DNA of 64,000 nucleotides from Pseudomonadota bacterium (GTDB lineage Bacteria > Pseudomonadota > Gammaproteobacteria > Burkholderiales > Burkholderiaceae_C): assembly GCA_020161775.1 (NCBI GenBank), contig JAIUOW010000006.1:1-64000 (forward strand), read 5' to 3'. This document shows, in pieces, positions 2,537 to 63,496 of the stretch. A model generated the notes under the pieces. It searched no databases and was not told the origin of the DNA. It worked only from the letters and a program-made list of their open reading frames with translations. Both the position numbers and the translations under genes were made by a program. Position 1 is the stretch's first letter; every line of letters starts with the position of its first letter.

Positions 2537-2564
2537 CGAATCATTTTAATGATGTAATTTGCGG

Positions 2565-18183: not shown

Positions 18184-21100
18184 ATGACAACCGGCTCCCC
18201 CGCCCGTCGCCAGCGCGGCCCCCAGGCCGCCAGAACGGTTGTGTTCCAGCTGACCCGCAAGCTGCGCGTCACTTACCGCGTGGGTGCTGGCGTGAGGATG
18301 TCGCGGCTGCTGGCCTGGCTGGTGGCGCCGTTCTCGTCACTGGTTCTTGCACTGCCAGCGGGTATGACGGTTGGCGCCGGCCAGGTCACGGCCACGCGGC
18401 CCTCGGCGCAGTCACTGGTGCTGAACCAGTCCACCGACAAGGCCATCCTGAACTGGCAGAGCTTTGGCATTGCCGCTGGCGAAGCCGTGCGGTTCGTCCA
18501 GCCGGGCGCGGGCTCGGTGGCGCTGAACCGCGTGACGGGCGGTGACCCGTCGGCGATCTTCGGCTCGCTGTCGGCCAACGGACAGATCTTCCTGGTCAAC
18601 CCCGCCGGCATCCTGTTCGCGCCGGGCGCGCAGGTCAACGCAGGCAGCATCGTTGCGTCCACGCTGAGCTTGAGCAACAGCGACTTCCTGGCCGGGCGCT
18701 ACCAGTTTGGCGGCACCAGCGGGGCGGGTGTGAGCAACGCCGGCACCATCAACGCCGCGCGCGGCGGCTATGTGCTGCTGGCTGCGCCCCAGGTGAGCAA
18801 CAGCGGCAGCATTTCAGCCGATGCCGGCAGCGTGGGGCTGGTGGCGGGCCAGCGCGTGGCTATTGACACCTCGGGCGCCGGCCTGGTGCGTTTTTCGGTC
18901 GATGCGGCGGCGGTCCATGCGGCGGCCAGCAACAGCGGCACCCTGGCGGCACCGGGCGGCCAGGTAGCCATGCTGGCCAGTTCGCTGGGCGATGCCATGG
19001 CAACGGTGGTCAACCAGACCGGCGTGATCCGCGCTGAGTCAGCCGTGGAACGCGACGGCATGATTGTGCTGAGCGGCGGCGCCAACGGCGTCACCCGGCT
19101 GGCGGGCACCCTGAATGCGGCCGGCCAGGCCGGGCGCAACGGCGGTACCGTCCATGTGCTGGGCGACAAGGTCGAGCTCACCGGCACCGCCCGCATTGAC
19201 GCCTCGGGCCCGGCGGGTGGCGGCACCGTGCTGGTGGGCGGCGACTGGCAGGGCAAGAACCCCGATATCGCGAACGCGGCGCGCACGCACATCGGCGCTG
19301 GCGCCGTGCTGCTGGCCGATGCCTCGGGCCGGGGCGATGGCGGCAAGGTCGTGGTCTGGGCCGACGGCGACACGCGCCAGCTCGGCGCCATCAGCGCCCG
19401 CGGCGGCCCGCAAGGCGGCAATGGCGGCATGGTGGAGGTCTCGGGCAAACAGTTGCTGGACCTGCGCGGCACGATTGACGTCGCCGCGCCCCAGGGCCGG
19501 GGCGGCAAGGTGCTGCTGGACCCGCAGGACATCCTGATCAACACCAGCACCCAGACCGCGCCACCCAGCAACGGCAACGGCACGCCGGACGTCGCCTTCG
19601 CCGATCTGCCCGACCCTGGTACCTACACCGTCCAGGTGGCGGACGTCACGGGCTACAGCGAGCTGTACCTGCAGGCCAACCGCAACATCACGGTGGCCAG
19701 TGCGCTGGCCATGGCGGCCGGCAACAGCGTGCGCTTCGAGGCCGGCAACACCATCGCCGTCAACGCGGCGCTGTCTGCCTCCGGCGGCGTGCGGCTGGAC
19801 GCGGCCAACATCACCAGCACCGCGGCAGGCACCATCAGCGCCACCGGTGCGGCCAACACCAACGCAGGCAACGTCACGCTGAACGCCACGGGCGGCGTGA
19901 GCCTGGCGGGCAATGTGTCGGCCACTGGCGGCACGGCCTCGGGTACCAACCCGGGGCGCAATGGCGGCACCATCAGCATCACCGGCACGACAGTCGCGCT
20001 GGGGGCCGCCACGCTCACGGCCAGCGGCAGCAACGCCGTGGGTGCCACCAGCAACCCCGGCGGCGCGGGCGGGACCATCACGCTGAACGCCACCAACGGC
20101 ATCACCGGCACGGGCGCCATCACGGCCAGCGGCGGCAACGGCATCACCGGCCCTGCCAACGGCGGTGCCGCAGGCACGATCACGATTGCCAACAACACGG
20201 CCGGCAACATCACCGTGGGTGCGCTGTCGGCCCGCTCGGGCAACGGCGTCACCACGGGCGCGGGCGGTGCCGCGGGCAGCATTTCGGTCACCAACACCGC
20301 GTCCGGGGCCAGCCTGGGCACGGGCAACATCAACACTTCGGGCGGCAGCAACGGCAGCTCCGGCACGGTCACGCTGGATTCCGCGGGCAACCTGAGCGCA
20401 GGCACCATCACCACCACTGGCGGCACGGCCATCACCGGTGGCAACCCCGGCCGCAACGCAGGCAATGTGACGATCAACGCGGGCGGCGCGATCACGGCCC
20501 TGGGTGCAATCACTGCCAGCGGCAGCGCGGGCGTGACCAGCGGCGTGGGCGGGCACGGCGGCACCGTCTCCGTCACGGCCGCTGGCGGCATCGCTGGTGC
20601 CGCCATCACCGCCAGCGGCGGCGCTGGCGTGGGCACCAACATGGCTGGCGGCAACGCGGGTTCCATCACCGTTGCCAACAGTGGCTCGGGCAATATCACC
20701 ACCGGCGCGCTCGCTTCCTCCACCGGTGCGGCCACCGGCACTGGTGCTGCCGGCACCGCAGCCGCCATCAGCATCACCAACACCGCCACCGGCGGCGCCA
20801 TCACCACCGCGGCCATCACCACCACCGGCGGCACCAAGGGCCACGGCGGCAGCGTCACGCTGGATGCGCTGGGCGCCGTGTCCACCGGCGCCGCAGGCAA
20901 CATCAATACCGCTGGCGGCACCACCATCACCGGCAACGCCGGGCGCAATGCCGGCTCGGTCACCATCTCCGGTGAGTCTTTCTCCTCGGGCACCGGCACC
21001 ATCACCGCTTCGGGCACGGCAGGCCTGGGTGCCAGTCAGGCCGGTGGCGCTGGCGCCAATGTGCAGATCACCACCACCGGTGCGGTCACCACCGGTGCGA

Positions 21101-24100
21101 TCAGCACGGTGGGTGGCGCCGCCGTCACACCCGGGCCTGCCGCCGGGGGCCATGCCGGCGCCATCACCGTCACCAACAATTCCACCATCAGCGGCGCCAT
21201 CGCCCTGGGCGCACTCACCACCACCGGGGGCGCGGCGTTTGGCACGGGCACCGGCGGCACCACGGGCGCCATCAACGTCACCAACAGTGCCTCCGGCCTG
21301 GCCCTGGGCACGGGCGCCATCACCGCCACCGGCACCACCAACGGCGCGGGCGCCAACGTCACGCTGGCCTCGCAGGGCGCGGTCAATGTGGCAGGGCTGA
21401 TCAACACCAATGGCGGCGCGCGCGGCACCGGCGTGGTCGGCCCCGGCATGGCCGCGGGCAACATCACCATCACGGGTTTGAACAATTCCGTCACCGGTGC
21501 CATCACCGCCAATGGCGCCGCCGCGCTGGGCGCCAACCAGAGCGGCGGCAACGCAGGCGCGGTGTCCATCACCGGCACCGGCACGCTGAACACTGGCGCC
21601 ATCACCGCCACCGGCGGGCGGGCGTTGGGAACGGGCTCCGGCGGCGATGGCGGCACCATCACCTTGAGCGGCAGCAATGCGACCGTCGGCGCGTTGAGCA
21701 CGGCAGGGCTGACCAGCAGCAGTTCCCGTGGCGGCGACATCACCATCACCACCTCTGGCACATTGGCCGTGGGCACGGTGGCAACCACCGGCGGCGCAGC
21801 CATCACCGGTGGCAACCCCGGCCGCAACGCGGGCAATGTGACGATCAACGCGGGCGGTGCGATCACAGCCCTGGGTGCAATCACTGCCAGCGGCAGCGCG
21901 GGCGTGACCAGCGGCGTGGGCGGGCACGGCGGCACCGTCTCCGTCACGGCCGCTGGCGGCATCGCTGGTGCCGCCATCACCGCCAGCGGCGGCGCTGGCG
22001 TGGGCACCAACATGGCTGGCGGCAACGCGGGTTCCATCACCGTTGCCAACAGTGGCTCGGGCAATATCACCACCGGCGCGCTCGCTTCCTCCACCGGTGC
22101 GGCCACCGGCACTGGTGCTGCCGGCACCGCAGCCGCCATCAGCATCACCAACACCGCCACCGGCGGCGCCATCACCACCGCGGCCATCACCACCACCGGC
22201 GGCACCAAGGGCCACGGCGGCAGCGTCACGCTGGATGCGCTGGGCGCCGTGTCCACCGGCGCCGCAGGCAACATCAATACCGCTGGCGGCACCACCATCA
22301 CCGGCAACGCCGGGCGCAATGCCGGCTCGGTCACCATCTCCGGTGAGTCTTTCTCCTCGGGCACCGGCACCATCACCGCTTCGGGCACGGCAGGCCTGGG
22401 TGCCAGTCAGGCCGGTGGCGCTGGCGCCAATGTGCAGATCACCACCACCGGTGCGGTCACCACCGGTGCGATCAGCACGGTGGGTGGCGCCGCCGTCACA
22501 CCCGGGCCTGCCGCCGGGGGCCATGCCGGCGCCATCACCGTCACCAACAATTCCACCATCAGCGGCGCCATCGCCCTGGGCGCACTCACCACCACCGGGG
22601 GCGCGGCGTTTGGCACGGGCACCGGCGGCACCACGGGCGCCATCAACGTCACCAACAGTGCCTCCGGCCTGGCCCTGGGCACGGGCGCCATCACCGCCAC
22701 CGGCACCACCAACGGCGCGGGCGCCAACGTCACGCTGGCCTCGCAGGGCGCGGTCAATGTGGCAGGGCTGATCAACACCAATGGCGGCGCGCGCGGCACC
22801 GGCGTGGTCGGCCCCGGCATGGCCGCGGGCAACATCACCATCACGGGTTTGAACAATTCCGTCACCGGTGCCATCACCGCCAATGGCGCCACGGCCCTGG
22901 GCACGGCGCAGAACGGCGGCGCAGCGGGTGTTGTTTCCATCACCGGCACCGGCACGTTGAACACTGGCGCCATCACCGCCACCGGCGGCATTGCCACCAC
23001 TACCGGCGCCGGTGGCGCAGCCGGCGGCATCACCCTGAGCGGCAGCAACGCCGTGGTCGGCGCCCTGAGCACGGCCGGCGCCAACACCAGCAATGTGCAT
23101 GGCGGCAACATCAGCATCACCACCACCGGTACGCTGTCGGTGGGCACCATCGCCACCGGTGGCGGCACGGCCGTGGCCGGCACCAACCCCGGCCGCAACG
23201 CAGGCAATGTGACGATCAACGCGGGCGGTGCGATCACCGCCCTGGGCGCGATCACCGCCAGCGGCAGCGCGGGCGTGACCAGCGGCATCGGCGGCCATGG
23301 CGGCACGGTTTCCGTCACGGCTGGCGGCGGCGTCGCAGGTGCGGCCATCACCGCCAGCGGCGCAGCCGGCGTGGGCACCAACATGGCTGGCGGCAACGCG
23401 GGCTCCATCACGGTTTCCAACAGCGGCTCGGGCAATATCACCACCGGCGCGCTCGCTTCCTCCACCGGTGCGGCCACCGGCACCGGTGCTGCCGGCATCG
23501 CAGCCGCCATCAGCATCACCAACACCGCCACCGGCGGCGCCATCACCACCGCGGCCATCACCACCACCGGCGGCACCAAGGGCCACGGCGGCAGCGTCAC
23601 CCTGGATGCGCTGGGCGCCGTGTCCACCGGTGCGGCGGGCAACATCAATACCGCCGGTGGCACCACCATCACCGGCAACGCCGGGCGCGATGCCGGCTCG
23701 GTCACCATCTCCGGCGAATCCTTCTCCTCGGGTACCGGCACCATCACCGCTTCGGGCTCCGCGGGCATCGGCACCAACCAGGCGGGGGGTGCGGGCAGCA
23801 CCGTCAGCCTGACGGCCACCGGCGCGCTGAACACGGCAGCCATCACGGCGTCGTCGGGCAATGCCACGGGCACCGGCACCGGCGGCACGCCAGGCAGCAT
23901 CAGCCTGAGCGGCGGCGACGTCACCGCGGGCAACCTGGTGACCACAGGCGGCGCGCGTGGCAACGGCGGCGCGGTCAATGTCACCTCCACTGGCAGCATG
24001 GCGCTGGCCGCGATCACCGCCAGCGCCGGCACCGGCGGCACCACGGCGGGCAACGTCACGCTGACCAGCGGTGGCGCGGTCAGCCAAAGTGGCGGCATTG

Positions 24101-27100
24101 TCGCGGCAGGCCTGGCACTCAACGGCGCGGGCGGCAGCCATGTGCTGCGCCATGCGGGCAATGCCGTCACGACGCTGGCCGCCAATACCGGCAGCATCGA
24201 CTACGCCCAGGCTTCGGCGCTGACCATCGGCACGGTGGGCGTGGCTGGCGTCACCGTCACGGGCAGCGCCAGCATCGAAACCACCGGCGCGGCGTCCAGC
24301 CTGACGCTGGCCAACGCTGTCACGGCGGCGGGCACGGGCAACGCCATCGTGCTGAAAGCCAGCTCCAGCAACGCGGCCGGCGTTGCCACCGGCGGCCAGA
24401 TCATCAACAGCGTGGGCGCGGGTGGCATCGTGGCCTCGGCGGGCCGTTACCTGGCCTACAGCGGCAACCCGTCGGTCACCACCGAGGGCGTGACCGGGTA
24501 CAGCAAGCGCTACAACTCCGACGCCTCCTACGTCCCGGCCGGTACGGCCAGCCATTTCCTGTACCGCATCGCGCCAGCGCTCACGGTCACGGCCAACAAC
24601 AAGTCGCGCGTGTATGGCGATGCCAACCCGGTGCTGGATGGCACGGTCACCGGCCTGATTGACGGGGATACTGCTGGCGGCGTGGGCGTGGGTTACAGCA
24701 CCACCGCCGTGGCCAACACGGCCGTGGCGGCGGGCCCCGTCGCTATCACCGCGGCCGCAACCAACCTGCAGAACTACACGCTCACGCTCAACAACGGCGC
24801 CCTGACCATCACCCCGCGGGCGCTGACGGTGACGGCCACCGGGCAGAACAAGGTATACGACGGCACCACCAACGCCAGCGTGACGCTGGCCGACAACCGG
24901 CTGGCCGGCGACGCCCTGACCCTGGGCAACACCGCTGCGACATTTGCCGACAAGAACGTCGGCGCCGCCAAGGCCGTCAGCGTGACGGGGATCAGCGTGA
25001 CGGGTGCCTCCGCGGCCAACTACACCTTCAATACCACCGCCGCGACCACGGCTGACATCACGGCGCGGGCACTGACCGTGGGCGCCACCGGCCAGAACCG
25101 CGTGTATGACGGCACCACCAACGCCAGCGTGACACTCACTGACAACCGCGTGGCTGGCGACGTACTAACCCTGAGCAACACTGGCGCCAGCTTCGCCAGC
25201 AAAAACGTCGGCACTGCCAAGGCAGTCAACGTCTCGGGCATCAACGTGACCGGCGTCGACGCCGGCAACTACACCTTCAACACCACCGCAGCGACGACGG
25301 CCGACATCACCGCGCGCGCCCTGACGGTCAGCGCAGCGGGCCAGAACAAGGTGTACGACGGCACCACCAATGCCAGCGTGACGCTGGCCGACAACCGCGT
25401 GGCCGGCGACTCGCTGAGCCTGGGCAGCACCGCCGCGAACTTTGCCGACAAGCATGCGGGCACGGCCAAGGCCATCACCGTCAGCGGCATCAGCCTGAGC
25501 GGCGCCGATGCGGCCAACTACACCTTCAACACCACGGCCGCCGCCACGGCCGACATCACCGCGCGTGCACTGACCGTCACTGCGACCGGGCAGAACAAGG
25601 TGTACGACGGCACTGCCAACGCCACGGTGAGCTTCAGCGACAACCGTGTGGCGGGTGACGCCCTGGGCATTTCCTCGGCCGCCAGCTTTGCCGACAAGCA
25701 TGTTGGAACGGCCAAGGCCGTCAGCGTCACCGGCATCAGCTTGACCGGCACCGATGCGGCCAATTACACCGTCAACCCCACGGCAGCGACCACGGCCAGC
25801 ATCACCGCGCGCGCCCTGACCGTGAGCGCCACGGGCCAGAACCGCGTGTATGACGGCACCACCAACGCCGACGTCACGCTCGCCGACAACCGCGTGGCGG
25901 GCGATGCGCTGGACCTGAGCCACACCACGGCAAGCTTTGCCAGCAAGAACGCAGGCACCGCCCGGACCATCAACGTCGCAGGCATCAACGTCACGGGCCT
26001 GGATGCGGGCAACTACACCTTCAACACCACCGCCGCCGCCACGGCCGACATCACCGCGCGCGCGCTGACGGTCAACGCCACCGGCCAGAACAAGGTATAC
26101 GACGGCTCCGCCAACGCCACCGTGACGCTGGGTGACAACCGGGTGGCGGGCGATGCGCTGACCCTGAACCACACGGGCGCCGCCTTCGCCGACAAGAACG
26201 CGGGAGCCGCCAAGGCCGTGAACGTGACCGGCATCAACGTGACTGGCACGGACGCTGCCAATTACAGCTTCAACACCACCGCCACCACCGCGGCCGACAT
26301 CACCGCTCGCGCGCTGACGGTCAGCGCCACCGGCCAGAACCGCGTATACGACGGCAGCACCGCTGCCAGCGTGACGCTGGCTGACAACCGCGTGGCCGGT
26401 GACGTGCTGGACATTGCCTCGACCGCCAGCTTTGCCGACAAGCACGTGGGTGCGGGCAAGACCGTCAGCGTTACAGGCATCAGCGTGACCGGCGCAGACG
26501 CCACCAACTACACCTTCAACACCGTGGCAGCAACGACAGCCAGCATCACGGCCCGCGCCCTGACGGTCAGTGCCACGGGTCAAAACAAGGTGTATGACGG
26601 CACCACCCATGCCAACGTGACGCTGGGTGACAACCGCGTGGCCGGCGACGCGCTGACGCTGAACCACACAAGTGCCGCCTTCACCGATAAAAATGCGGGG
26701 ACCGCCAAGGCGGTGAATGTGAGCGGCATCAACGTCACGGGCCTGGACGCCGCCAACTACACCTTCAACACCACCGCAGCGACGACGGCCGACATCACAC
26801 CCGCCAGCATCACCGCCGTCACCGGCATCACCGCGCAGAACAAGGTGGAGGACGGCACCACCGCCGCCACACTGGTCACAACGGGTGCTGCATTCACGGG
26901 GCAGGTCGCGGGCGATGTGCTGAGCGTCACGGCGGCCACTGGCGCGTTTGATTTGCCCAACCCCGGCACGGCCAGACCGGTCGCCATCACCGGCATCACG
27001 CTGGGCGGCACCCATGCGGGCAACTATGTGCTGACCAACAACACGGCTGCGACCACAGCCGACATCTACGAGGCGGCCACGCCACTGCCACCCGCCCCGC

Positions 27101-27522
27101 CACCGCCACCGCCACCGCCACCTGCACCCAGCCCAGCGCCCACGCCCACGCCCGGCGCACCGGCGCCCGCCCCTGGCCCCGTACCCGCTCCGGCACCCGC
27201 TCCTGCACCCGTTGCCGGATCCGGCGGTGGCGGCGCCATTCCAGGCATGCCAGGGGACGGCAACAACAACAGCGGGGCAGGCACCGTCACAGATACCCCG
27301 CCCGGCACACCACCTTCCCCTACCGCCACGCCAGGCGGCATGGCCACCGTGCCCACTGAACTGGTGCGCTATGCCACGTCCGGCACCAACCCGCTGGGCA
27401 ACTGGACTTTCAACGGCCCGGTGACGCTGGAGTTGCTGCAGCAACTGATGACGGGCAAGCGCCAGGACGCAGCCAATGCCTGCGCATCGGGCAGCGTGGA
27501 CGCTGCGGGCAACTGCAATTAG
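18184..27522 (+). CDS. Giant TpsA exoprotein (filamentous-hemagglutinin type) with MBG and YDG repeats
   Basis: The 3,112-residue protein is the secreted partner of the upstream TpsB. Order of parts: a basic extended N terminus and hydrophobic signal (about 1-60); a TPS domain (about 62-280) with NQSTDKAILNWQSFGI and the IFLVNPAGILFAPGAQV signature; a Gly/Ala/Thr/Ser-rich beta-helix region (to about 2130) containing three 457-residue units; an MBG-type repeat (about 2132-2212); eight YDG repeats of 82-83 residues (2213-2872, core GQNKVYDGTTNASVTL) plus a ninth degenerate one; a proline-rich stretch (about 2965-3020); and a C-terminal tail. The only two cysteines lie in the last 14 residues (ACASGSVDAAGNCN). 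An ATG at codon 39 (18298) gives a more ordinary signal peptide and is an alternative start; neither has a good ribosome-binding site. Likely an adhesin or biofilm fibre. Confidence 0.93.
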   Translation: MTTGSPARRQRGPQAARTVVFQLTRKLRVTYRVGAGVRMSRLLAWLVAPFSSLVLALPAGMTVGAGQVTATRPSAQSLVLNQSTDKAILNWQSFGIAAGEAVRFVQPGAGSVALNRVTGGDPSAIFGSLSANGQIFLVNPAGILFAPGAQVNAGSIVASTLSLSNSDFLAGRYQFGGTSGAGVSNAGTINAARGGYVLLAAPQVSNSGSISADAGSVGLVAGQRVAIDTSGAGLVRFSVDAAAVHAAASNSGTLAAPGGQVAMLASSLGDAMATVVNQTGVIRAESAVERDGMIVLSGGANGVTRLAGTLNAAGQAGRNGGTVHVLGDKVELTGTARIDASGPAGGGTVLVGGDWQGKNPDIANAARTHIGAGAVLLADASGRGDGGKVVVWADGDTRQLGAISARGGPQGGNGGMVEVSGKQLLDLRGTIDVAAPQGRGGKVLLDPQDILINTSTQTAPPSNGNGTPDVAFADLPDPGTYTVQVADVTGYSELYLQANRNITVASALAMAAGNSVRFEAGNTIAVNAALSASGGVRLDAANITSTAAGTISATGAANTNAGNVTLNATGGVSLAGNVSATGGTASGTNPGRNGGTISITGTTVALGAATLTASGSNAVGATSNPGGAGGTITLNATNGITGTGAITASGGNGITGPANGGAAGTITIANNTAGNITVGALSARSGNGVTTGAGGAAGSISVTNTASGASLGTGNINTSGGSNGSSGTVTLDSAGNLSAGTITTTGGTAITGGNPGRNAGNVTINAGGAITALGAITASGSAGVTSGVGGHGGTVSVTAAGGIAGAAITASGGAGVGTNMAGGNAGSITVANSGSGNITTGALASSTGAATGTGAAGTAAAISITNTATGGAITTAAITTTGGTKGHGGSVTLDALGAVSTGAAGNINTAGGTTITGNAGRNAGSVTISGESFSSGTGTITASGTAGLGASQAGGAGANVQITTTGAVTTGAISTVGGAAVTPGPAAGGHAGAITVTNNSTISGAIALGALTTTGGAAFGTGTGGTTGAINVTNSASGLALGTGAITATGTTNGAGANVTLASQGAVNVAGLINTNGGARGTGVVGPGMAAGNITITGLNNSVTGAITANGAAALGANQSGGNAGAVSITGTGTLNTGAITATGGRALGTGSGGDGGTITLSGSNATVGALSTAGLTSSSSRGGDITITTSGTLAVGTVATTGGAAITGGNPGRNAGNVTINAGGAITALGAITASGSAGVTSGVGGHGGTVSVTAAGGIAGAAITASGGAGVGTNMAGGNAGSITVANSGSGNITTGALASSTGAATGTGAAGTAAAISITNTATGGAITTAAITTTGGTKGHGGSVTLDALGAVSTGAAGNINTAGGTTITGNAGRNAGSVTISGESFSSGTGTITASGTAGLGASQAGGAGANVQITTTGAVTTGAISTVGGAAVTPGPAAGGHAGAITVTNNSTISGAIALGALTTTGGAAFGTGTGGTTGAINVTNSASGLALGTGAITATGTTNGAGANVTLASQGAVNVAGLINTNGGARGTGVVGPGMAAGNITITGLNNSVTGAITANGATALGTAQNGGAAGVVSITGTGTLNTGAITATGGIATTTGAGGAAGGITLSGSNAVVGALSTAGANTSNVHGGNISITTTGTLSVGTIATGGGTAVAGTNPGRNAGNVTINAGGAITALGAITASGSAGVTSGIGGHGGTVSVTAGGGVAGAAITASGAAGVGTNMAGGNAGSITVSNSGSGNITTGALASSTGAATGTGAAGIAAAISITNTATGGAITTAAITTTGGTKGHGGSVTLDALGAVSTGAAGNINTAGGTTITGNAGRDAGSVTISGESFSSGTGTITASGSAGIGTNQAGGAGSTVSLTATGALNTAAITASSGNATGTGTGGTPGSISLSGGDVTAGNLVTTGGARGNGGAVNVTSTGSMALAAITASAGTGGTTAGNVTLTSGGAVSQSGGIVAAGLALNGAGGSHVLRHAGNAVTTLAANTGSIDYAQASALTIGTVGVAGVTVTGSASIETTGAASSLTLANAVTAAGTGNAIVLKASSSNAAGVATGGQIINSVGAGGIVASAGRYLAYSGNPSVTTEGVTGYSKRYNSDASYVPAGTASHFLYRIAPALTVTANNKSRVYGDANPVLDGTVTGLIDGDTAGGVGVGYSTTAVANTAVAAGPVAITAAATNLQNYTLTLNNGALTITPRALTVTATGQNKVYDGTTNASVTLADNRLAGDALTLGNTAATFADKNVGAAKAVSVTGISVTGASAANYTFNTTAATTADITARALTVGATGQNRVYDGTTNASVTLTDNRVAGDVLTLSNTGASFASKNVGTAKAVNVSGINVTGVDAGNYTFNTTAATTADITARALTVSAAGQNKVYDGTTNASVTLADNRVAGDSLSLGSTAANFADKHAGTAKAITVSGISLSGADAANYTFNTTAAATADITARALTVTATGQNKVYDGTANATVSFSDNRVAGDALGISSAASFADKHVGTAKAVSVTGISLTGTDAANYTVNPTAATTASITARALTVSATGQNRVYDGTTNADVTLADNRVAGDALDLSHTTASFASKNAGTARTINVAGINVTGLDAGNYTFNTTAAATADITARALTVNATGQNKVYDGSANATVTLGDNRVAGDALTLNHTGAAFADKNAGAAKAVNVTGINVTGTDAANYSFNTTATTAADITARALTVSATGQNRVYDGSTAASVTLADNRVAGDVLDIASTASFADKHVGAGKTVSVTGISVTGADATNYTFNTVAATTASITARALTVSATGQNKVYDGTTHANVTLGDNRVAGDALTLNHTSAAFTDKNAGTAKAVNVSGINVTGLDAANYTFNTTAATTADITPASITAVTGITAQNKVEDGTTAATLVTTGAAFTGQVAGDVLSVTAATGAFDLPNPGTARPVAITGITLGGTHAGNYVLTNNTAATTADIYEAATPLPPAPPPPPPPPPAPSPAPTPTPGAPAPAPGPVPAPAPAPAPVAGSGGGGAIPGMPGDGNNNSGAGTVTDTPPGTPPSPTATPGGMATVPTELVRYATSGTNPLGNWTFNGPVTLELLQQLMTGKRQDAANACASGSVDAAGNCN
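20430..23780 (+). repeat. 1,371-bp tandem repeat in tpsA (two full units and a partial third)
   Basis: Units begin near 20430, 21801 and 23172, an exact period of 1,371 bp (457 codons). Units 1 and 2 have the same protein sequence and nearly the same DNA over about 1,091 bp (20430-21520 and 21801-22891), with only a few synonymous changes near the left end. Their remaining 280 bp (21521-21800 and 22892-23171) are clearly related but diverged. Unit 3 keeps register to about 23760 with many substitutions, then the similarity ends. The sharp boundary inside each unit suggests gene conversion. Confidence 0.93.
24820..26799 (+). repeat. Eight tandem YDG-domain repeats (246-249 bp each) in tpsA
   Basis: Each unit encodes A-L-T-V-x-A-x-G-Q-N-(K/R)-V-Y-D-G, then a VTLxDNRxAGD stretch, a FADKN/FASKN segment, and NYTFNTTAATTADITAR or a close variant. 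Units start at 24820 and recur about every 82-83 codons. They differ from each other at many positions, so this array is older than the 1,371-bp duplication. A ninth, degenerate unit (26800-27069, QNKVEDGTTAATL) follows, and an MBG-type unit precedes the array. Confidence 0.92.
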
Positions 27523-50395: not shown

Positions 50396-50842
50396 CTACT
50401 TGAGCTGCACGCCCAGCGCGTCGCGCACTTCCACGGTGATCGCGATGCCCTGGCCGACGCTTTGCGTCACGGTGCAGAACTGCTCGAACTGGCCCAGCAC
50501 ACGATCCAGGTGCTGCAAGGAGGCCGCCGGCACGCCCAGCGTGAGTTGCGCCTTCATCGCCAGCACACGCACGCGGCCTTCGGCGTTGCGGCCCACTTCG
50601 GCCTGCACCACGGCAGACAGCGGCTCGGGCGCCTGCTTGAACTTGCGCAGCGCGAACAGCAGCGAATCCGACAGGCAGTTGCCCACGGCGGCGGCCAGCA
50701 GTTCCACGGGTGAAGGGCCCTGGCCGCCACCCAGCGGCGCGGGCTCGTCGGCCACCAGCGCGGCCACGCCGCTGTCGAAGGCCACGCGGAAACGGTAGTC
50801 CTGCTCCTGGCTCAGGCGGACGGTGACAAGGGATTCGCTCAT
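50396..50842 (-). CDS. OsmC-family thiol-dependent protein
   Basis: The 148-residue protein has the two conserved OsmC/Ohr-type cysteines, in AVGNCLSDSLLFAL and QFCTVTQSV, and the PSPVELLAAA segment. Members reduce organic peroxides or related oxidised thiols. It is coupled to the TDT transporter gene (ATGA overlap), which in turn follows the persulfide dioxygenase gene by 18 bp, so it probably belongs to the sulfur regulon driven from the divergent promoter at 52702-52742. A role on sulfur-oxidised species rather than peroxides is conceivable but is inference. Confidence 0.9.
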   Translation of the reverse strand: MSESLVTVRLSQEQDYRFRVAFDSGVAALVADEPAPLGGGQGPSPVELLAAAVGNCLSDSLLFALRKFKQAPEPLSAVVQAEVGRNAEGRVRVLAMKAQLTLGVPAASLQHLDRVLGQFEQFCTVTQSVGQGIAITVEVRDALGVQLK

Positions 50843-51789
50843 GGTTGGACTCCTGTGGAAGGGGGTGTTGCAAGGGGTGCGCCGGGCCCCGGCTCGGGCA
50901 CCAGCAGGCTGCCCCGACGCAAGCCCTTGAGGGTGGCCAGGGCCAGCGCCAGAATCACCAGCGAGGACAAGGCCAGCAGCGCCAGCGCGAATGCCTGCAA
51001 CGCCGCCGGCGCGTTGCCCGCCAGCCGCAGGCTCAACGCGGCGAATGCCGCCAGCGGAAAAGACAGCGCCCAGAATGGAACGGCAAACGGCTGGTCGATG
51101 GCGCGGCGCAGCACGCTGGCGGACCAGCCCGCGAACAGCAGCGCGATGCCCCAGGCGCCCCAGGCCAGGGATTCAGGTGCGCCCAGTTGCAGGGCCGCCA
51201 GGCCGATCACGGCGGGCGGCGCGATGGTGATGAAGGTGGTGGGCAACAGTCGTTGTGGCCACAAGCCGGCGATGCCAATGCGCACCACCAGCAGCGCGAT
51301 CACCAGCGGCCAGAAAAACAGGCCCACGCCGAACTGCACCACGGACCAGGTACCGTGCCCCAGTGGCACACCAGCCAGCGGCACCAGCACGTTGCCTACG
51401 ATGGGGATCAGCAAAGGCGGCGTGATGCCGCTCCAGAAAGCCGCGGAAGCTTGCGCCGGCGTGCTGGCGGGTGCGGCGGGTGCCAGCCAGCGCGACACCA
51501 CCCACAGCGTCACGCCGAGCTGCCACACCGAGCCGGTCATCCACAGGCCACGCGCCCAGGGCGTGGGCCCGCCCAGCGCTACCGCCACGGTGGCCAGCAG
51601 GATCAGCGAGACCGGCATGGCCGCCACGAAGACATGGCGCACCGGGTGGCGCAGGTCCTCGGCCCAGGCCTGCGCATGACGCTGCCAGCGCAACAGCGAG
51701 GCCAGGGCCAGCGCCAGGCCACTGAGGCCCATGACGATGGAGAACCAGCCGGGGGCGAGGAACTTCAGGGGCGTGGGGTGTGCGCTCAT
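50839..51789 (-). CDS. TDT/SLAC1-family anion transporter
   Basis: The 316-residue protein has about ten transmembrane helices with the family start APGWFSIVMGLSGLALAL and helices such as FGVGLFFWPLVIALLVVRIG and PTTFITIAPPAVIGLAALQLG. The TDT/SLAC1 family includes tellurite-resistance TehA, plant anion channels and the yeast sulfite efflux pump Ssu1. Downstream of a persulfide dioxygenase, whose product is sulfite, sulfite export is an attractive guess. The start overlaps nothing upstream (18-bp gap to the dioxygenase stop); its stop overlaps the OsmC gene start. Confidence 0.88.
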   Translation of the reverse strand: MSAHPTPLKFLAPGWFSIVMGLSGLALALASLLRWQRHAQAWAEDLRHPVRHVFVAAMPVSLILLATVAVALGGPTPWARGLWMTGSVWQLGVTLWVVSRWLAPAAPASTPAQASAAFWSGITPPLLIPIVGNVLVPLAGVPLGHGTWSVVQFGVGLFFWPLVIALLVVRIGIAGLWPQRLLPTTFITIAPPAVIGLAALQLGAPESLAWGAWGIALLFAGWSASVLRRAIDQPFAVPFWALSFPLAAFAALSLRLAGNAPAALQAFALALLALSSLVILALALATLKGLRRGSLLVPEPGPGAPLATPPSTGVQP

Positions 51790-51807
51790 GTCCGGCAGTG
51801 TCGCGCA

Positions 51808-52668
51808 TCACAGCGCATTGACGGGGATCTTGAGGTAGGCCACGCCGTTGGCTTCGGCCGGCGGCATGTCGCCCGCGCGGATGTTGACCTGCACCGCCGG
51901 CAGGATCAGCACGGGCATGTCCAGCGTGGCGTCGCGCGCGGTGCGCATGCTGACGAATTCGGCCTCGCTCACACCGTCATGCACATGGATGTTGCCGGCG
52001 CGTTGCGCGGCCACGGTGGTCTGCCAGGCGACATCGCGGCCAGCCGGCGGGTAGTCGTGGCACATGAACAGGCGTGTTTCGGGCGGCAGGCTCAGCAGCT
52101 TGCGGGTGGACTGGTACAGCGTGTGCGCATTACCACCAGGGAAGTCGCAGCGCGCCGTGCCCACGTCGGGCATGAACAGCGTGTCGCCCACGAACACGGC
52201 GTCGTCCACCTGGTAGGCCATGCACGCCGGCGTGTGGCCGGGCACGGACATCGCGCGGGCGATCAGCGCGCCGATGGCGAACGTCTCGCCGTCCTTCAGC
52301 AGGTGGTCGAACTGGTGACCGTCGGGGCGGAACTCGGGCTCCAGGTTGAAGATTTTCTTGAACACATCCTGCACGTTGGTGATGGCCGCGCCGATGGCGA
52401 TCCTGCCGCCCAGCTTCTTGCGCAGGTAGTGCGCGGCGGACAGGTGGTCGGCGTGGGCATGGGTCTCCAGGATCCATTGCACCTTGAGCTGCTTTTCCTG
52501 CACGAAGGCGATCAGCTTGTCCGCCGAGGTGGTGCGGGTGCGCCCGGACTTCGGGTCGTAGTCGAGCACCGAGTCCACGATGGCGCAGTCAGCGCCTTCC
52601 TTTTCATAGACCACATAGCTCACGGTCCAGGTAGCCGGGTCGAAAAAGCCTTTGACGATGGGTTTCAT
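51808..52668 (-). CDS. Persulfide dioxygenase-like metallo-beta-lactamase-fold protein (ETHE1/Blh type)
   Basis: The 286-residue protein has the MBL metal motif THAHADH (His70, His72, Asp74, His75), later VPGHTPACMAYQ and GDTLFMPDVGTARCDFPGG, and LFMCHDYPPAGRD. This pattern matches ETHE1-like persulfide dioxygenases and the MBL half of Blh, which use one iron to oxidise glutathione persulfide to sulfite. The ATG at 52668 has AAGGAG five bases upstream; a GTG two codons earlier overlaps that site and is rejected. It is divergent from the BigR-like regulator across the symmetric promoter and leads the OsmC/TDT side of the cluster. Confidence 0.93.
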   Translation of the reverse strand: MKPIVKGFFDPATWTVSYVVYEKEGADCAIVDSVLDYDPKSGRTRTTSADKLIAFVQEKQLKVQWILETHAHADHLSAAHYLRKKLGGRIAIGAAITNVQDVFKKIFNLEPEFRPDGHQFDHLLKDGETFAIGALIARAMSVPGHTPACMAYQVDDAVFVGDTLFMPDVGTARCDFPGGNAHTLYQSTRKLLSLPPETRLFMCHDYPPAGRDVAWQTTVAAQRAGNIHVHDGVSEAEFVSMRTARDATLDMPVLILPAVQVNIRAGDMPPAEANGVAYLKIPVNAL

Positions 52669-52701
52669 GCGCACTCCTTGGCGTTTGTTGATTTCGATGT
52701 G

Positions 52702-52742
52702 GATAGTATATTGACAGATATATTGTTTGTCAATATACTATC
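52702..52742. promoter_or_regulatory. Perfectly symmetric divergent promoter/operator of the sulfur regulon
   Basis: A 15-bp arm, GATAGTATATTGACA (52702-52716), and its exact complement (52728-52742) flank 11 bp. Each arm holds a -35 box for one direction and a -10 box for the other. Rightward: TTGACA 52711-52716, 17-bp spacer, TATACT 52734-52739. Leftward: TTGACA 52733-52728, 17-bp spacer, TATACT 52710-52705. From -10 to start codon is about 36 bp on both sides. The palindrome is the obvious site for the BigR-like repressor encoded next to it. Confidence 0.92.
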
Positions 52743-52774
52743 TGCAGGTTAATTCAAAAAGGAGCTTGAGCATC

Positions 52775-53098
52775 ATGCAAGCAGACACCGTGATGGACAT
52801 CGATGTCCTGCGCCAGTCGGCTGACGACGCCAGCCGGCTCATGAAAGTGCTGTCCAACCCCGACCGGCTGCTGCTGCTGTGCCAGCTGGCCCAGGGCGAA
52901 AAGCGCGTGGGCGAGCTGGAGGAAATCGTCGGCATCCTGCAGCCCACTTTGTCCCAGCAGCTGGGCGTGCTGCGCGACGAGGGGCTGGTGAGCACCCGGC
53001 GCGAGGGCAAAAACATTTATTACCGCATCGACAGCCCGCAGGCGCTGGCCGTGCTGAACGTTCTTTATCTTCAATTTTGTGGAACCCCCAAGGAGTAA
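52775..53098 (+). CDS. bigR: BigR/SqrR-type persulfide-sensing ArsR-family repressor
   Basis: The 107-residue protein is a winged-helix ArsR regulator (recognition region LQPTLSQQLGVLRDEGLVSTRREGK split as HTH and wing). It has Cys36 (LLLLCQLAQGE) and Cys102 (LYLQFCGTPKE), 66 residues apart, the same spacing as the reactive pair of SqrR (C41/C107) and BigR (C42/C108) that forms a disulfide or polysulfide bridge on exposure to persulfide and releases DNA. The ATG at 52775 has AAAAAGGAG upstream. It faces the persulfide dioxygenase gene across the symmetric operator, so it should repress both transcripts, including itself. Confidence 0.93.
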   Translation: MQADTVMDIDVLRQSADDASRLMKVLSNPDRLLLLCQLAQGEKRVGELEEIVGILQPTLSQQLGVLRDEGLVSTRREGKNIYYRIDSPQALAVLNVLYLQFCGTPKE

Positions 53099-53104
53099 GA
53101 CACC

Positions 53105-53536
53105 ATGACGATCGACTGGACTCATTTCACGCCTTGGGCCTCGCTGGCCGGCGGCATCCTGCTGGGCCTGGCCTCGGCCCTGTTCATCCTGGTGAACGGC
53201 CGCATTCTCGGCATCAGCGGCATCCTGGGCGGCCTGCTTCGCCCTGTGAAGGGTGATACCGGCTGGCGCCTGGCCTTCCTGGCCGGCATGCTGGCCGCCC
53301 CACTGCTGTACTTCATGGTGGCGGGGCCGACAACGCCGCGCATCGACGCCGGCTGGGCCACCATCGTGATCGCCGGCCTGCTGGTCGGTGTGGGCACGCG
53401 TTATGGCTCGGGCTGTACCAGTGGCCACGGCGTCTGTGGCCTGTCGCGCCTGTCGCCGCGTTCGCTGGTGGCCACGCTGGCCTTCATGGGCGCGGGCTTT
53501 GTCACCGTCTACCTCGCGCGCCACGCTTTCGCATAA
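53105..53536 (+). CDS. YeeE/YedE-family half transporter (first of pair)
   Basis: The 143-residue membrane protein has about four helices, a conserved [20 protein letters not shown] segment and the cysteine motif [17 protein letters not shown]. YeeE/YedE proteins import thiosulfate or related sulfur compounds; here, as in PmpA/PmpB pairs, the transporter is split into two small proteins. AAGGAG overlaps the bigR stop codon region, giving tight coupling. The partner half is encoded 27 bp downstream. Confidence 0.9.
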
Positions 53537-53563
53537 GCCGCATCGCCAATCAAGGAGTACCTC

Positions 53564-54004
53564 ATGCAACACCGCATTTCTGAATTCGCCGTGGGCCTGC
53601 TGTTCGGCATTGGCCTGATCCTCTCGGGCATGACCGATCCCGGCAAGGTGACCGGCTTCCTCGACCTGTTTGGTCAATGGGACCCGTCGCTCGCCCTGGT
53701 GATGGGCGGCGCCATCATGGTGGGCGTGTTCGCGTTTGCCATCGCCAAGAAGCGCACCACCACCTTCCTGGGGGGCGCGCTGCACCTGCCGAAGTCCACC
53801 GACATCGACCGCCGCCTGGTGGTGGGCGGCCTGGTGTTCGGCGCGGGCTGGGGCCTGGCCGGCTTCTGCCCGGGCCCGGCGCTGGTGTCGCTGGGCGCGG
53901 GCCAGCCCAAGGCGGCCGTGTTCGTGGTGGCCATGCTCGCGGGCATGTACGTGTTCGAGCTGCTGGAGCGCCGTGCGCCGCGTGATCCGGCGGGCGCGCA
54001 CTGA
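53564..54004 (+). CDS. YeeE/YedE-like half transporter (second of pair, DUF6691 type)
   Basis: Second half-transporter of 146 residues, with about four helices and the family pattern FGIGLILSGMTDPGKVTGFLD near the N terminus and VFGAGWGLAGFCPGPALVSLG with one conserved cysteine. A loop between helices (KRTTTFLGGALHLPKSTDID) is typical of this subfamily. A strong AAGGAG precedes the ATG. It presumably pairs with the preceding gene product to move a reduced sulfur compound across the inner membrane. Confidence 0.9.
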   Translation: MQHRISEFAVGLLFGIGLILSGMTDPGKVTGFLDLFGQWDPSLALVMGGAIMVGVFAFAIAKKRTTTFLGGALHLPKSTDIDRRLVVGGLVFGAGWGLAGFCPGPALVSLGAGQPKAAVFVVAMLAGMYVFELLERRAPRDPAGAH

Positions 54005-54040
54005 AACTGTGCCACTGCCAATTCCCGAAAGGAGTCACCC

Positions 54041-54382
54041 ATGACCGTACCGACGAAAGCCCTGACCCCGCAGTTCGCCGTGGCCGCCCAACTGTCGGCG
54101 CACGACCTGCCGGCTGTGGCCGCACAGGGCTTCAGGACCCTCATCAACAACCGGCCGGACGGTGAAGGCGGCCCTGGCCAGCCCCCCAGCCGCGAGTTCG
54201 AGGCCGCCGCCCAGGCGCTGGGCCTGAACTACATCTACCTGCCGGTGGTCAGTGGTGCCATCACCGCTGACCAGGCCGTGGCCATGCGCGAGGCCCTGGC
54301 CACGGCGCCCGGCCCGGTGCTGGCGTTCTGCCGCTCGGGCGCACGTTCGGCCCAGTTGTACAGCCTGGCCACCGGCCAGTAA
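54041..54382 (+). CDS. TIGR01244-family sulfur transferase/phosphatase-like protein (DUF442)
   Basis: The 113-residue protein has the TIGR01244/DUF442 fold, with GFRTLINNRPDGE near the N terminus and the active-site loop LAFCRSGARSAQL. In Xylella and Agrobacterium Blh this domain is fused to the persulfide-dioxygenase MBL domain; here the two are encoded by separate genes on opposite sides of the promoter. A rhodanese-like sulfur-transfer role is favoured over phosphatase activity. AAAGGAG precedes the ATG. Confidence 0.9.
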   Translation: MTVPTKALTPQFAVAAQLSAHDLPAVAAQGFRTLINNRPDGEGGPGQPPSREFEAAAQALGLNYIYLPVVSGAITADQAVAMREALATAPGPVLAFCRSGARSAQLYSLATGQ

Positions 54383-54423
54383 CCCCCGCTCGCAAACACA
54401 CCCGCAAAACGAAAGGCCCGGCA

Positions 54424-56133
54424 ATGAAATGGCTTCCTGAATGGTTGCGCCACTACCAGCGGGCCTGGTTCGCCGGGGACCTGACGGCCGGCATCATCGT
54501 CACGGTGATGCTGATCCCGCAGAGCCTGGCCTATGCGCTGCTGGCCGGGCTGCCGCCCGAGGTGGGGCTGTACGCCAGCATCCTGCCGATCATCGCCTAC
54601 GCCCTGCTGGGCTCCAGCATGACGCTGGCCGTGGGCCCGGTGGCGGTGGCATCGCTCATGACGGCCAGCGCCTTGCAGCCGCTGGCGGCGGCCGGCTCGG
54701 CCGAGTACGTGGCGCTGGCGATGCAGCTGTCATTGCTGTCGGGCGTGATGCTGCTGGCCTTCGGCGCGTTGCGGCTGGGCTTTCTGGCGTATTTCCTGAG
54801 CCACCCGGTCATCAGCGGCTTCATCACCGGCTCGGCCGTGCTGATCGCGGTGGGGCAGATCAAACACATCCTGGGCGTGAAGGTCGCGGGCAGTGATGTG
54901 CTCGACGTGCTGCACGGCCTCGCAACGGCCTTGCCGCAGACCCGGCCCGTCACGCTGGTCATCGGTGTGGCCAGCCTGTTGTTCCTGTGGGCAGCGCGGC
55001 GCTGGATGGCGCGCGCGCTGCAGCACATCGGCCTGGGCGCCAAGACGGCCGACCTGCTGGCCAAGCTCGCGCCCATGCTGGCGGTGATCGCCTCCACCGC
55101 CGTGGTGGGCCTGCTGCGGCTGGACCAGTCAGCCGGCGTGAGCGTGGTGGGTGCCGTGCCGCAGGGCCTGCCCCAGCTCAGCCTGCCGGTGCCCAGCATG
55201 GGTACGCTGGGCCAGCTGTGGCTGCCCGCGCTGCTGATCTCGCTGGTGGGTTTTGTGGAAAGTGTTTCGGTGGCGCAATCGCTGGCGCTCAAGCGCCAGC
55301 AACGCATCCAGCCCAACCGCGAGCTGCTGGGCCTGGGCGCGGCCAACATGGCCAGCGCGTTCTCGGGCGGCTACCCGGTCACGGGCGGCTTCGCGCGCTC
55401 GGTGGTCAACTTTGCCGCGGGCGCCCAGACGCCATTGGCCGGCGTGATCTCGGCCGTGCTGATGGCAGTGGTGATCGCCGCGCTGACCGGCTGGTTCTTC
55501 TACCTGCCGCATGCGGTGCTGGCCGCCACCATCATCATTGCCGTGACGTCGCTGATCGACCTGGACACGCTGCGCCACGCCTGGCACTACGACCGCGCGG
55601 ACGCGCTGGCGCTGCTGGCCACGGCCGCCGGCGTGGTGGTGTTCGGGGTGGAAGCCGGCATCCTGCTGGGCGTGACCCTGTCGCTGGGCACCATCGTCTG
55701 GCGCAACACCCACCCGCACATTGCGGTGGTGGGCCGCCTGCCAGGCACCCAGCATTTCCGCAACGTGGAGCGCTTCCAGGTGGAAACCGTGCCCGGCCTG
55801 CTGGCCGTGCGGGTGGACGAAAGCCTGTTCTTCGCCAACGCCACGGTGGTGGAAGACCGCATCGAGGCCCTGCTGGCGCGCGACGCCACGGTGCGCCGCG
55901 TGGTGCTGATCTGCTCTGCCATCAACCAGATCGACGCCACGGCGCTGGGCGTGCTGACGCAAATGGAACGCAACCTGGCCGCGCGCGGCATTGAATTCAC
56001 GCTCGCCGAAGTCAAGGGCCCTGTGATGGACCGGCTGCGTGGCACGGAGCTGGGCCAGCGGCTGCACGGCAAGGTGTTTTTGAGCACCCACGACGCCTTC
56101 ATGCAACCGGTGCCAGCGCCTCCCAGGCCGTAA
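54424..56133 (+). CDS. SulP-family sulfate/anion permease with STAS domain
   Basis: The 569-residue inner-membrane transporter starts with the SulP signature GDLTAGIIVTVMLIPQSLAYALLAGLPPEVGLY (here split across the first helices), followed by about 11 more helices and a C-terminal STAS domain (from about residue 440; VRRVVLICSAINQIDATALGVLTQM). SulP proteins move sulfate, bicarbonate or other anions. As the last rightward gene of the persulfide cluster it most likely handles sulfate or sulfite. Its last 35 bp overlap the 3' end of the convergent AhpD-like gene. Confidence 0.93.
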   Translation: MKWLPEWLRHYQRAWFAGDLTAGIIVTVMLIPQSLAYALLAGLPPEVGLYASILPIIAYALLGSSMTLAVGPVAVASLMTASALQPLAAAGSAEYVALAMQLSLLSGVMLLAFGALRLGFLAYFLSHPVISGFITGSAVLIAVGQIKHILGVKVAGSDVLDVLHGLATALPQTRPVTLVIGVASLLFLWAARRWMARALQHIGLGAKTADLLAKLAPMLAVIASTAVVGLLRLDQSAGVSVVGAVPQGLPQLSLPVPSMGTLGQLWLPALLISLVGFVESVSVAQSLALKRQQRIQPNRELLGLGAANMASAFSGGYPVTGGFARSVVNFAAGAQTPLAGVISAVLMAVVIAALTGWFFYLPHAVLAATIIIAVTSLIDLDTLRHAWHYDRADALALLATAAGVVVFGVEAGILLGVTLSLGTIVWRNTHPHIAVVGRLPGTQHFRNVERFQVETVPGLLAVRVDESLFFANATVVEDRIEALLARDATVRRVVLICSAINQIDATALGVLTQMERNLAARGIEFTLAEVKGPVMDRLRGTELGQRLHGKVFLSTHDAFMQPVPAPPRP

Positions 56134-61836: not shown

Positions 61837-62577
61837 ATGACCAGCCCGCCTTCCATCCCCGCCGCCATCGTTGCCGCCTTCGCCCTCACCGGACGCCTGC
61901 GCGCCTCCATCAACACCGGCAACCCCATCCTGGCGGCGCCGGACCCGGCCACCGGCACGGCCAGGGGCGTGTCGGTGGACCTGGCGCGCGGGTTTGCGCA
62001 GCGCCTGGGGCTGGCCCTGGAGCTGGTGGTGTTCGGCACCGCCGCCCAGTCGGTGAATGCGGTGACGAACGGGCAGGCCGACATCGGCTTTTTCGCCATT
62101 GATCCCAAGCGCGGCGAAAGCATCCACTTCACCGCGCCCTATGTGCTGATCGAAGGCTGCTATGCCGTGCGCGATGAATCCCCGCTCACCCGCACGGACG
62201 AAGTGGACCGTACCGGCACGCGCGTGGTGGTCGGCCAGGGCAGCGCCTACGACCTGTACCTCAGCCGCGAGATCCAGCATGCCACCCTGCTGCGCGCGCC
62301 CAGCTCGCCGGCGGTGGTGGACTATTTCCTGGCGCAAGGCGCCGACGTGGCCGCTGGTGTGAAGCAGCAGCTGCAGGCAGACGCCGCGCGCCTGGGCGGC
62401 ATCCGCCTGCTGCCGGATCGCTTCATGGTGATCCAGCAGGCCATGGGCTGCCCGCGCAGCCGGGGCGCCGAGGCCGCCGCGGCACTGGCCGCTTATGTGG
62501 AAGACATGAAGCGCAGCGGCTTCGTGGCCGATGCGCTGGCGCGCCACGGCATCAGCGGCGCGGCGGTGGCGCCCTGA
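61837..62577 (+). CDS. Family 3 solute-binding-domain protein without obvious signal peptide
   Basis: The 246-residue protein has the amino-acid-type binding fold: LTGRLRASINTGNPILA, ARGVSVDLARGFAQRLGL, VTNGQADIGFFAIDPKRGESIHFTAPYVLIEG. The N terminus MTSPPSIPAAIVAAFALTG lacks a basic start and a proper hydrophobic core, so export is doubtful. No permease or ATPase genes accompany it. It is followed after 4 bp by the LysR gene. It may sense an internal ligand, or the true start may lie elsewhere; a TTG four codons upstream does not add a signal peptide. Confidence 0.85.
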   Translation: MTSPPSIPAAIVAAFALTGRLRASINTGNPILAAPDPATGTARGVSVDLARGFAQRLGLALELVVFGTAAQSVNAVTNGQADIGFFAIDPKRGESIHFTAPYVLIEGCYAVRDESPLTRTDEVDRTGTRVVVGQGSAYDLYLSREIQHATLLRAPSSPAVVDYFLAQGADVAAGVKQQLQADAARLGGIRLLPDRFMVIQQAMGCPRSRGAEAAAALAAYVEDMKRSGFVADALARHGISGAAVAP

Positions 62578-62581
62578 ACCC

Positions 62582-63496
62582 ATGGCCACGCCGCTCAACT
62601 TCCGCCATCTCTATTACTTCTGGGTCGTCGCCAAGGAAGGCGGCATGTCCCGCGGGGCTGACCGGCTGGGCATGGCGGTGCAGACCGTCAGCGCCCAGGT
62701 GCGCGCACTGGAGCAGGAGCTGGGCCATGCGCTGTTCAAGCCATCCGGCCGCGCGCTGGTGCTGACCGAAGGCGGCGAGGCGGCCATGGCACTGGCCGAG
62801 CAGATCTTCCAGCTGGGCGAGGCCCTGCCCGCGGCGGTGCGCGAAGCGGCCACCGGTGTGGGCATGCGCCTGCGCGTGGGCATCTCGGACGGCTTGCCCA
62901 AGCTGGTGGTACGCCACCTGCTGCGCCCCGCCGTGGCCGACACTGGCGCACGGCTCTTGTGTCATGAGGATGAATTCGACCGCCTGCTGGCCGAGCTGGC
63001 GCTGCACAAGCTCGACGCCCTGCTGGCCGACCGCGCCGCCCCCACGAACAACCCCAACCTGCGCCTGTACAGCCACAAGCTGGGTGAAGCGCCGCTGGCC
63101 TGGTTTGCACCCGCGGCGTTGATCGACAAGCTGGGCGGCAAACGCCGTGCGCGCTTTCCGGCCTGCCTGGCGCAGATGCCGGTGTTGCTGCCCACCGGCC
63201 ATGCGGCCGTGCGCCCGCGCATTGACCACTGGCTGGAGCGCGAGGGGCTGCGCCCGGACATCGTGGGCGAGTTTGAAGACAGCGCGTTGCTGGCGGCTTT
63301 CGGGCGCAGCGGCATGGGCGCGTTTCCGGCGTCCCGCCTGTCCGCCAGGGAGCTGCTGGCCGACCCCGGCATCGTGCAGTTGGGCAACAGCCCCGACCTG
63401 GTCGAGGCGTTCTACCTGATCTCGGCAGAAAGAAAAATCCAGCATCCGCTGGTGCAGCGGATGCTGGATGGCTTGAAGAACGCGACGCCGGGTTGA
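62582..63496 (+). CDS. nhaR: NhaR-like LysR-family transcriptional regulator
   Basis: The 304-residue regulator begins NFRHLYYFWVVAKEGGMSRGADRLGMAVQTVSAQVRALEQELG (helix-turn-helix, about residues 5-62, given here in its recognisable order) and has the usual periplasmic-binding-like effector domain. The N terminus FRHLYYFW is characteristic of NhaR, which in E. coli responds to sodium and activates the Na+/H+ antiporter gene nhaA. No antiporter gene is present in the window, so its target here is unknown. The preceding binding-protein gene is 4 bp upstream and probably co-transcribed. Confidence 0.9.
   Translation: MATPLNFRHLYYFWVVAKEGGMSRGADRLGMAVQTVSAQVRALEQELGHALFKPSGRALVLTEGGEAAMALAEQIFQLGEALPAAVREAATGVGMRLRVGISDGLPKLVVRHLLRPAVADTGARLLCHEDEFDRLLAELALHKLDALLADRAAPTNNPNLRLYSHKLGEAPLAWFAPAALIDKLGGKRRARFPACLAQMPVLLPTGHAAVRPRIDHWLEREGLRPDIVGEFEDSALLAAFGRSGMGAFPASRLSARELLADPGIVQLGNSPDLVEAFYLISAERKIQHPLVQRMLDGLKNATPG

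Follow-up and report, generated by a model that had tools for sequence, protein, structure and literature searches.

How a single short stretch of DNA can serve two genes that are read away from each other is the question raised by a perfect palindrome located between a gene for a BigR-like repressor and the divergent gene for a persulfide dioxygenase (PDO). The palindrome lies in the window, i.e. the whole stretch of 64,000 nucleotides that was analyzed, and consists of two arms of 15 nt with 100% complementarity and a gap of 11 nt (Table 1). Both arms carry the -35 hexamer of one promoter (TTGACA) beside the -10 hexamer of the other (TATACT), the two separate -10 elements being located at 52705-52710 and 52734-52739. 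The 15-11-15 palindrome, the reciprocal hexamers and the 17-bp spacing were recovered by inverted-repeat and promoter scans just as the original prediction had described them, and the distance from -10 to start codon, there given as about 36 bp on each side, was measured as 35 nt for bigR (ATG at 52775) and 36 nt for PDO (ATG at 52668). "Face-to-face" was the wrong term for these promoters, which are divergent and fully superimposed and whose transcripts head apart. The site is most probably a BigR/SqrR-type operator that shares its DNA with two divergent sigma-70 promoters arranged in reciprocal register.

Table 1. Coordinates and assignments of the palindrome, its promoters and the neighboring genes in the window.
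Feature	Position	Strand	Description	Evidence or remark
Palindrome 15-11-15	52702..52742 (41 bp)	.	probable operator with two overlapping divergent promoters	inverted-repeat and promoter scan, conservation upstream of bigR relatives
Left arm GATAGTATATTGACA	52702-52716
Right arm TGTCAATATACTATC	52728-52742
Centre GATATATTGTT (11 bp)	52717..52727	.	separates the arms
bigR-ward promoter	52711..52739	+	TTGACA-17-TATACT, 11/12	promoter scan
PDO-ward promoter	52705..52733	-	TTGACA-17-TATACT, 11/12	promoter scan
bigR-ward transcription start	near 52746	+	expected
PDO-ward transcription start	near 52698	-	expected
bigR-like gene, 107 aa	52775..53098	+	ArsR/SmtB-fold repressor, cysteines C36 and C102	best PDB match 3pqj
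YeeE/TsuA-type sulfur transport half 1	53105..53536	+		PF04143 26.5 bits, just under cutoff 27; weak
YeeE/DUF6691-type sulfur transport half 2	53564..54004	+		domain search
DUF442 sulfurtransferase	54041..54382	+		aligns to Blh residues 3-104
SulP anion permease with STAS domain	54424..56133	+
Persulfide dioxygenase (PDO)	51808..52668	-	metallo-beta-lactamase fold	aligns to Blh residues 141-423
SLAC1/TehA-family anion channel	50839..51789	-	downstream of PDO
OsmC-like protein	50396..50842	-	next gene leftward

The intergenic region comprises 106 bp with a GC content of 38%, that of the 64-kb window being 68%. Arms of 15 bp were reached in none of 20,000 dinucleotide shuffles of this region (longest shuffled arm 12), and a promoter scan of positions 51500-54500 called exactly two sites, both inside the palindrome, compared to an average of 0.3 in shuffled sequence. 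A second site, with up to 3 mismatches allowed to 30 bases or to a 22-base consensus, was not found in the same genome. The window has two exact inverted repeats with arms of 15 nt and a spacer of at most 20, namely the palindrome and a repeat with a 3-nt loop at 63437-63469, which lies inside a LysR-type ORF (62531-63496; family assigned by eye), at its 3' end. The window further contains a very long ORF of 3112 aa (18184-27522, plus strand), which we take to resemble a filamentous-haemagglutinin-type secreted protein and which harbors a 249-bp repeat in 8 copies (24807-26798) as well as an inverted repeat of 42 identical bases at 20578 and 21949.

In a comparison limited to sequence, the best solved relative of the bigR-like protein is BigR 3pqj (E 8.2e-27), and a match to PF01022 with 52.3 bits places it in the ArsR/SmtB winged-helix family. 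Its cysteines C36 and C102, which align with the sensing cysteines of BigR (C42/C108), and the sequence QPTLSQQL in the region of the recognition helix are invariant in 21 aligned sequences. With the NCBIfam BigR equivalog model NF040642 the protein scores 101.2 bits, below the cutoff of 155, and by this model it is to be regarded as a relative of BigR and not as an equivalog. Fold family and cysteines group the repressor with BigR, SqrR and YgaV, which suggests that it senses persulfide. BigR recognizes the -10 region and is inactivated by H2S or polysulfide (PMC5823870).

Operons are predicted on both sides of the palindrome. Strand and spacing suggest that the OsmC-like gene belongs to the PDO operon, and a possible function of the SLAC1/TehA-family channel is the export of sulfite. 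The Blh counterparts PDO and DUF442 are encoded by separate genes on opposite strands, either side of the palindrome. In Xylella fastidiosa and Agrobacterium, a single operon with a fused Blh is found (PMC5823870); here, DUF442 and PDO are separate and flank a putative two-way operator-promoter, and the bigR operon of this locus contains no fused DUF442-ETHE1 Blh. Shared with that system (PMC5823870) are a two-cysteine ArsR-type repressor and, as predicted here, an operator at the -10 region through which sulfur enzymes of the DUF442 and ETHE1 types are controlled. The comparison covers genes and operator placement.

The original prediction had proposed a search for the palindrome upstream of bigR homologues, and the palindrome is indeed widespread there. 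Its core motif, TATTGAC-N13-GTCAATA, comprises 14 scored bases and is called present with at least 12 matches. Upstream of bigR in 81 loci, i.e. the window and the best 80 of 418 confirmed BigR relatives from a genome contig scan (mostly Comamonadaceae and other Burkholderiales), 14 bases match in 55 loci, at least 13 in 69 and at least 12 in 78, the core being absent in L005, L038 and L042. PDO is divergent within 300 bp in 74 of these 81 loci, the exceptions being L005, L014 (a contig edge), L030, L042, L050, L061 and L074. In L061, which has kept the core, PDO is found about 1 kb farther off and the intervening gene reads away (by eye). In L030 (Acidovorax temperans), with a core of 13/14, the divergent partner is by eye a rhodanese-like ORF (2472-2852, minus strand) and not PDO. 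In a gene-blind search for the exact core, 11 of 200 family genomes, that of the window included, proved to contain it at one site each, and all 11 sites are located between divergent bigR and PDO; the reversed pattern, used as a control, has 0 occurrences in the 200 genomes.

With the addition of 28 new loci from a BigR profile search (match in 117 of 399 family genomes) and of 40 further stretches, an enlarged set of 159 loci was obtained, 10 of which came from the core search itself. The core reaches at least 12/14 in 118 of them, corresponding to 105 distinct sites, and 41 score below. After exclusion of the 10 core-selected loci and of L014 as a contig edge, the core is present, at a bigR identity of at least 70%, in 86 of the 90 loci that have divergent PDO and in 4 of the 11 that do not; once seven identical loci are removed, the counts are 82 of 85 versus 4 of 10 (Fisher p 1.8e-5, ignoring kinship). 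Among loci with PDO, the core is present in 13 of 23 at 60-70% identity (missing in 10) and in 3 of 16 below 60% (missing in 13). At a bigR identity of at least 70%, the core is missing from three distinct loci that have divergent PDO (L038, L140 and L148). Such PDO loci without core, more frequent at lower bigR identity, indicate that this pair of genes is also served by other operators.

Distant BigR relatives were matched in 38 of 274 class genomes. Among 30 distant loci examined, only the window's own locus and one of the same family have the core, and the other 28 score 7-11/14. Some of these loci contain other palindromes; L098 and L099, for example, carry TAATATTAG-N6-CTAATATTA with differing spacer letters. 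L100 (bigR identity 49%, divergent PDO) contains an unrelated 15-6-15 palindrome at about 1417-1452 with no clear -35 by eye, which hints that long palindromes may have come about more than once between bigR and PDO. In L157, a bigR locus with no PDO match, AGTATA-N8-TATACT lies about 51-32 bases upstream of bigR; here the outer arms, placed closer together, possibly constitute a single-dimer version of the operator. As to the likely BigR operator for both operons that was originally predicted, the comparison supports a shared operator-promoter that is paired with the neighboring ArsR protein. The palindrome offers a well-delimited candidate for the operator of sulfide sensing in Comamonadaceae and relatives.

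The distribution of the core also bears on the possibility that the palindrome is an operator only, the hexamers of one direction being by-products of TATTGAC and another promoter being used there. The half-site itself includes TTGAC as well as the first two bases of the -10 element, and L050 and L074 retain both arms (12 and 14 of 14) with no divergent gene in their ORF lists (by eye), so that in these loci the repressor alone may account for the retention of the left arm. This explanation is nevertheless unlikely, as the site is missing in 6 of the 10 distinct loci without nearby divergent PDO (bigR at least 70%), the scan of 51500-54500 calls no further promoter, and conservation outside the core completes the -10 element on both sides. 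Counted from the palindrome centre (52722 in the window; n=105 distinct sites), the -35 elements occupy -11 to -6 and +6 to +11 and the -10 elements -17 to -12 and +12 to +17. The core positions ±7 to ±13, which were used for site choice, are 88-100% conserved. Positions ±15 and ±17, which were not, are 99-100% conserved on both sides and complete both -10 elements, so that both match TANANT in 98 of the 105 sites.

Conservation extends to positions that a promoter would not require. In the promoter spacer, ±2 and ±4 are 99-100% conserved, the bases kept being A on the left side (-4, -2) and T on the right (+2, +4), and beyond the -10 element ±19 is 90% conserved. Since these positions lie outside the hexamers and are not needed by sigma, they are best explained by the repressor. 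The conserved span measures 39 bp, and a single ArsR dimer usually covers less than this, about half of some 45 bp, which makes two repressor dimers per site likelier than one. With respect to dimer arrangement, several partial dyads are visible by eye in the conserved columns.

A second explanation holds that the symmetry mainly serves a bidirectional promoter with balanced output, the repressor binding elsewhere or to a part only. In its favor, both promoters reach at least 9/12 in 100 of the 105 sites (the core alone already fixes 7/12), and in a parsimony analysis on a tree of 105 tips (FastTree on concatenated BigR, PDO and YeeE protein rows) the third -10 bases change on the same branch 8 times versus 2.6 expected, 6 of the changes being complementary (p 0.0015, uncorrected, 17 pairs). 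It is quite improbable, however, because ±2, ±4 and ±19 are conserved though unneeded by sigma, the two -10 elements are identical in only 35 of 105 sites, and leader lengths are unmatched. The leaders of the two sides correlate with a Spearman coefficient of -0.27 and differ by at most 1 in 12 of 99 sites versus 18.2 expected after shuffling (starts by a simple Shine-Dalgarno rule; 6 of 105 sites dropped because the start was missing or out of range). On these two results leader-length symmetry was rejected as a design feature, and the symmetry "down to leader length" that was pointed out earlier is a coincidence of this locus. Readings of the site as a pure promoter or a pure operator were both rejected, as either leaves conserved positions unaccounted for.

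Exact pairing runs of at least 15 are found in 14 and of at least 12 in 35 of the 105 sites, the longest being 22 (L154) and 21 (L127), and the site in the window ranks among the more symmetric in a graded series. Pairing runs of this length in relatives, together with perfect AT-rich arms, would also be expected of a cruciform, an RNA hairpin or a terminator. This third explanation is very improbable: the predicted transcripts begin at the palindrome edges, so that a hairpin would not be transcribed, a scan called no terminator-like site at the palindrome, and base identity at fixed positions is conserved beyond what pairing alone would demand.

For the operator superimposed on two promoters, a possible but doubtful mechanism that would help, alongside selection, to keep the palindrome perfect is template switching of DNA polymerase between the arms, by which arms would be copied, the centre inverted, and half-sites and promoters would evolve jointly. 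Arm homogenization and spacer inversion have been described as footprints of template switching (PMC8604942, PMC8794818). Besides the third -10 bases, the pairs at ±23 (p 0.003), ±3 (0.011), ±1 (0.036), ±24 (0.048) and ±27 (0.049) co-change, and the remaining eleven of the 17 pairs have no p under 0.05 (all values uncorrected). The 5 co-changes at ±3 are all non-complementary and the centre flips orientation, with T..G in 52 sites, C..A in 25, T..A in 23, C..G in 3 and others in 2. The 11-bp centre is inverted in some relatives; L032 and L045, for example, have 3 mismatches in 30 flank bases, and their centres show 5 differences in 13 bases when compared directly and 1 when one of them is reverse-complemented. 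Copying of an arm is suggested by L127 and L129 of the same genus, which differ at 4 of 5 bases in one arm and at one base in the other; in L127 the former arm pairs perfectly with the latter. L004, the closest relative of the window in the tree, differs from the window at ±14, ±16 and ±18 in both arms, always in a complementary manner; its ±19 is unpaired, and its centre is nearer that of the window when inverted (3 vs 5 mismatches).

Of 66 nearest-neighbor pairs, 32 have centres with at least 3 differences in 13 bases. With crude simulations of register shift and centre inversion, and with tests that share ancestry, the reverse-complement centre is closer by at least 3 in 6 of these 32 pairs (2.2 simulated, P 0.004), and 9 arm-copy clusters are in register (3 from the pair of the window and L004) compared to 2.25 on average and at most 7 across 40 shifted registers. 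The fraction of changes that gain pairing is 0.72 at ±14 to ±18 versus 0.24-0.57 in shifted registers, but chance matching at ±14, ±16 and ±18 is high because few bases are allowed at these positions. Beyond the -10 elements (±19 to ±27) the fraction of 0.42 is inside the shifted-register range of 0.29-0.46, and in the centre it is 0.47 versus up to 0.54. Asymmetry is tolerated in most relatives, which speaks against template switching. A shifted repressor specificity is no obvious cause of the arm changes, since QPTLSQQL is invariant in the 21 sequences.

The switch would most probably operate as follows. In the absence of sulfide, the reduced repressor, probably as two dimers abreast, would cover both -35 and both -10 elements and silence bigR-yeeE-yeeE-DUF442-sulP and pdo-SLAC1-osmC together, bigR thereby repressing its own expression. 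Persulfide would join the two cysteines of the repressor, which would then leave the DNA, and polymerase could bind the freed site in either orientation, never in both simultaneously. Because both promoters take up one stretch of DNA, a polymerase on one of them should preclude binding to the other, a point that was absent from the original prediction. Near-identical promoters would split the output roughly equally. The equal induction proposed there is plausible for this locus, where both promoters score 11/12, but it is no rule, the -10 elements being identical in only 35 of 105 sites. Across these sites the promoter score is higher on the bigR side in 46, higher on the PDO side in 17 and equal in 42.

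Palindromic operators over overlapping divergent promoters are known from E. coli bioA/bioB (bioO) and from tetA/tetR, with repressor families that differ from the one here. They are not known to have the exact reciprocal register found at this locus. Pseudo-symmetrical DNA on which polymerase adopts two mutually exclusive orientations and generates divergent mRNAs has been described recently (Warman et al., 2026; PMC12825309). In that study, starts flank or fall within a shared -10 element and are mostly 18, 10 or 23 bp apart, the basal activity of five tested promoters was low, too low for competition, and the control of bidirectional promoters was, by the authors' account, previously unknown. 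In contrast to the promoters reported there (PMC12825309), the palindrome has two -10 elements, each abutting the -35 element of the other promoter and neither of them shared, both promoters are near consensus, and starts are expected about 48 bp apart. Mutual polymerase exclusion of the same type is predicted here from the full overlap of the promoters. E. coli YgaV and Rhodobacter SqrR belong to the same ArsR subfamily as the repressor, and YgaV binds over its own promoter and at katG from -113 to -157, about 45 bp (PMC9774250). The SqrR motif ATTC-N8-GAAT (PMC9774250) is absent by eye from 52702-52742. A literature search that covered mainly titles and the openings of abstracts, the original BigR papers (PMC3138302, PMC1951920) lying outside it, did not return a description of this site, and an earlier one is possible.

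As an element the site is well supported, and judged from its sequence it would be a repressed divergent promoter of a known sort, with a promoter geometry unlike that of Warman et al. It represents a naturally occurring two-way promoter that approaches the consensus in either direction, with near-perfect symmetry, apparent control by a repressor and about a hundred natural variants. It opens a test of how polymerase competition splits the output when both directions are strong, and of how the halves of a palindromic regulatory site co-evolve. The two halves of the Blh enzyme appear here to be placed under one switch, and with the palindrome very probably being the site of the repressor, this one switch would govern both halves of the sulfide-detoxification system.
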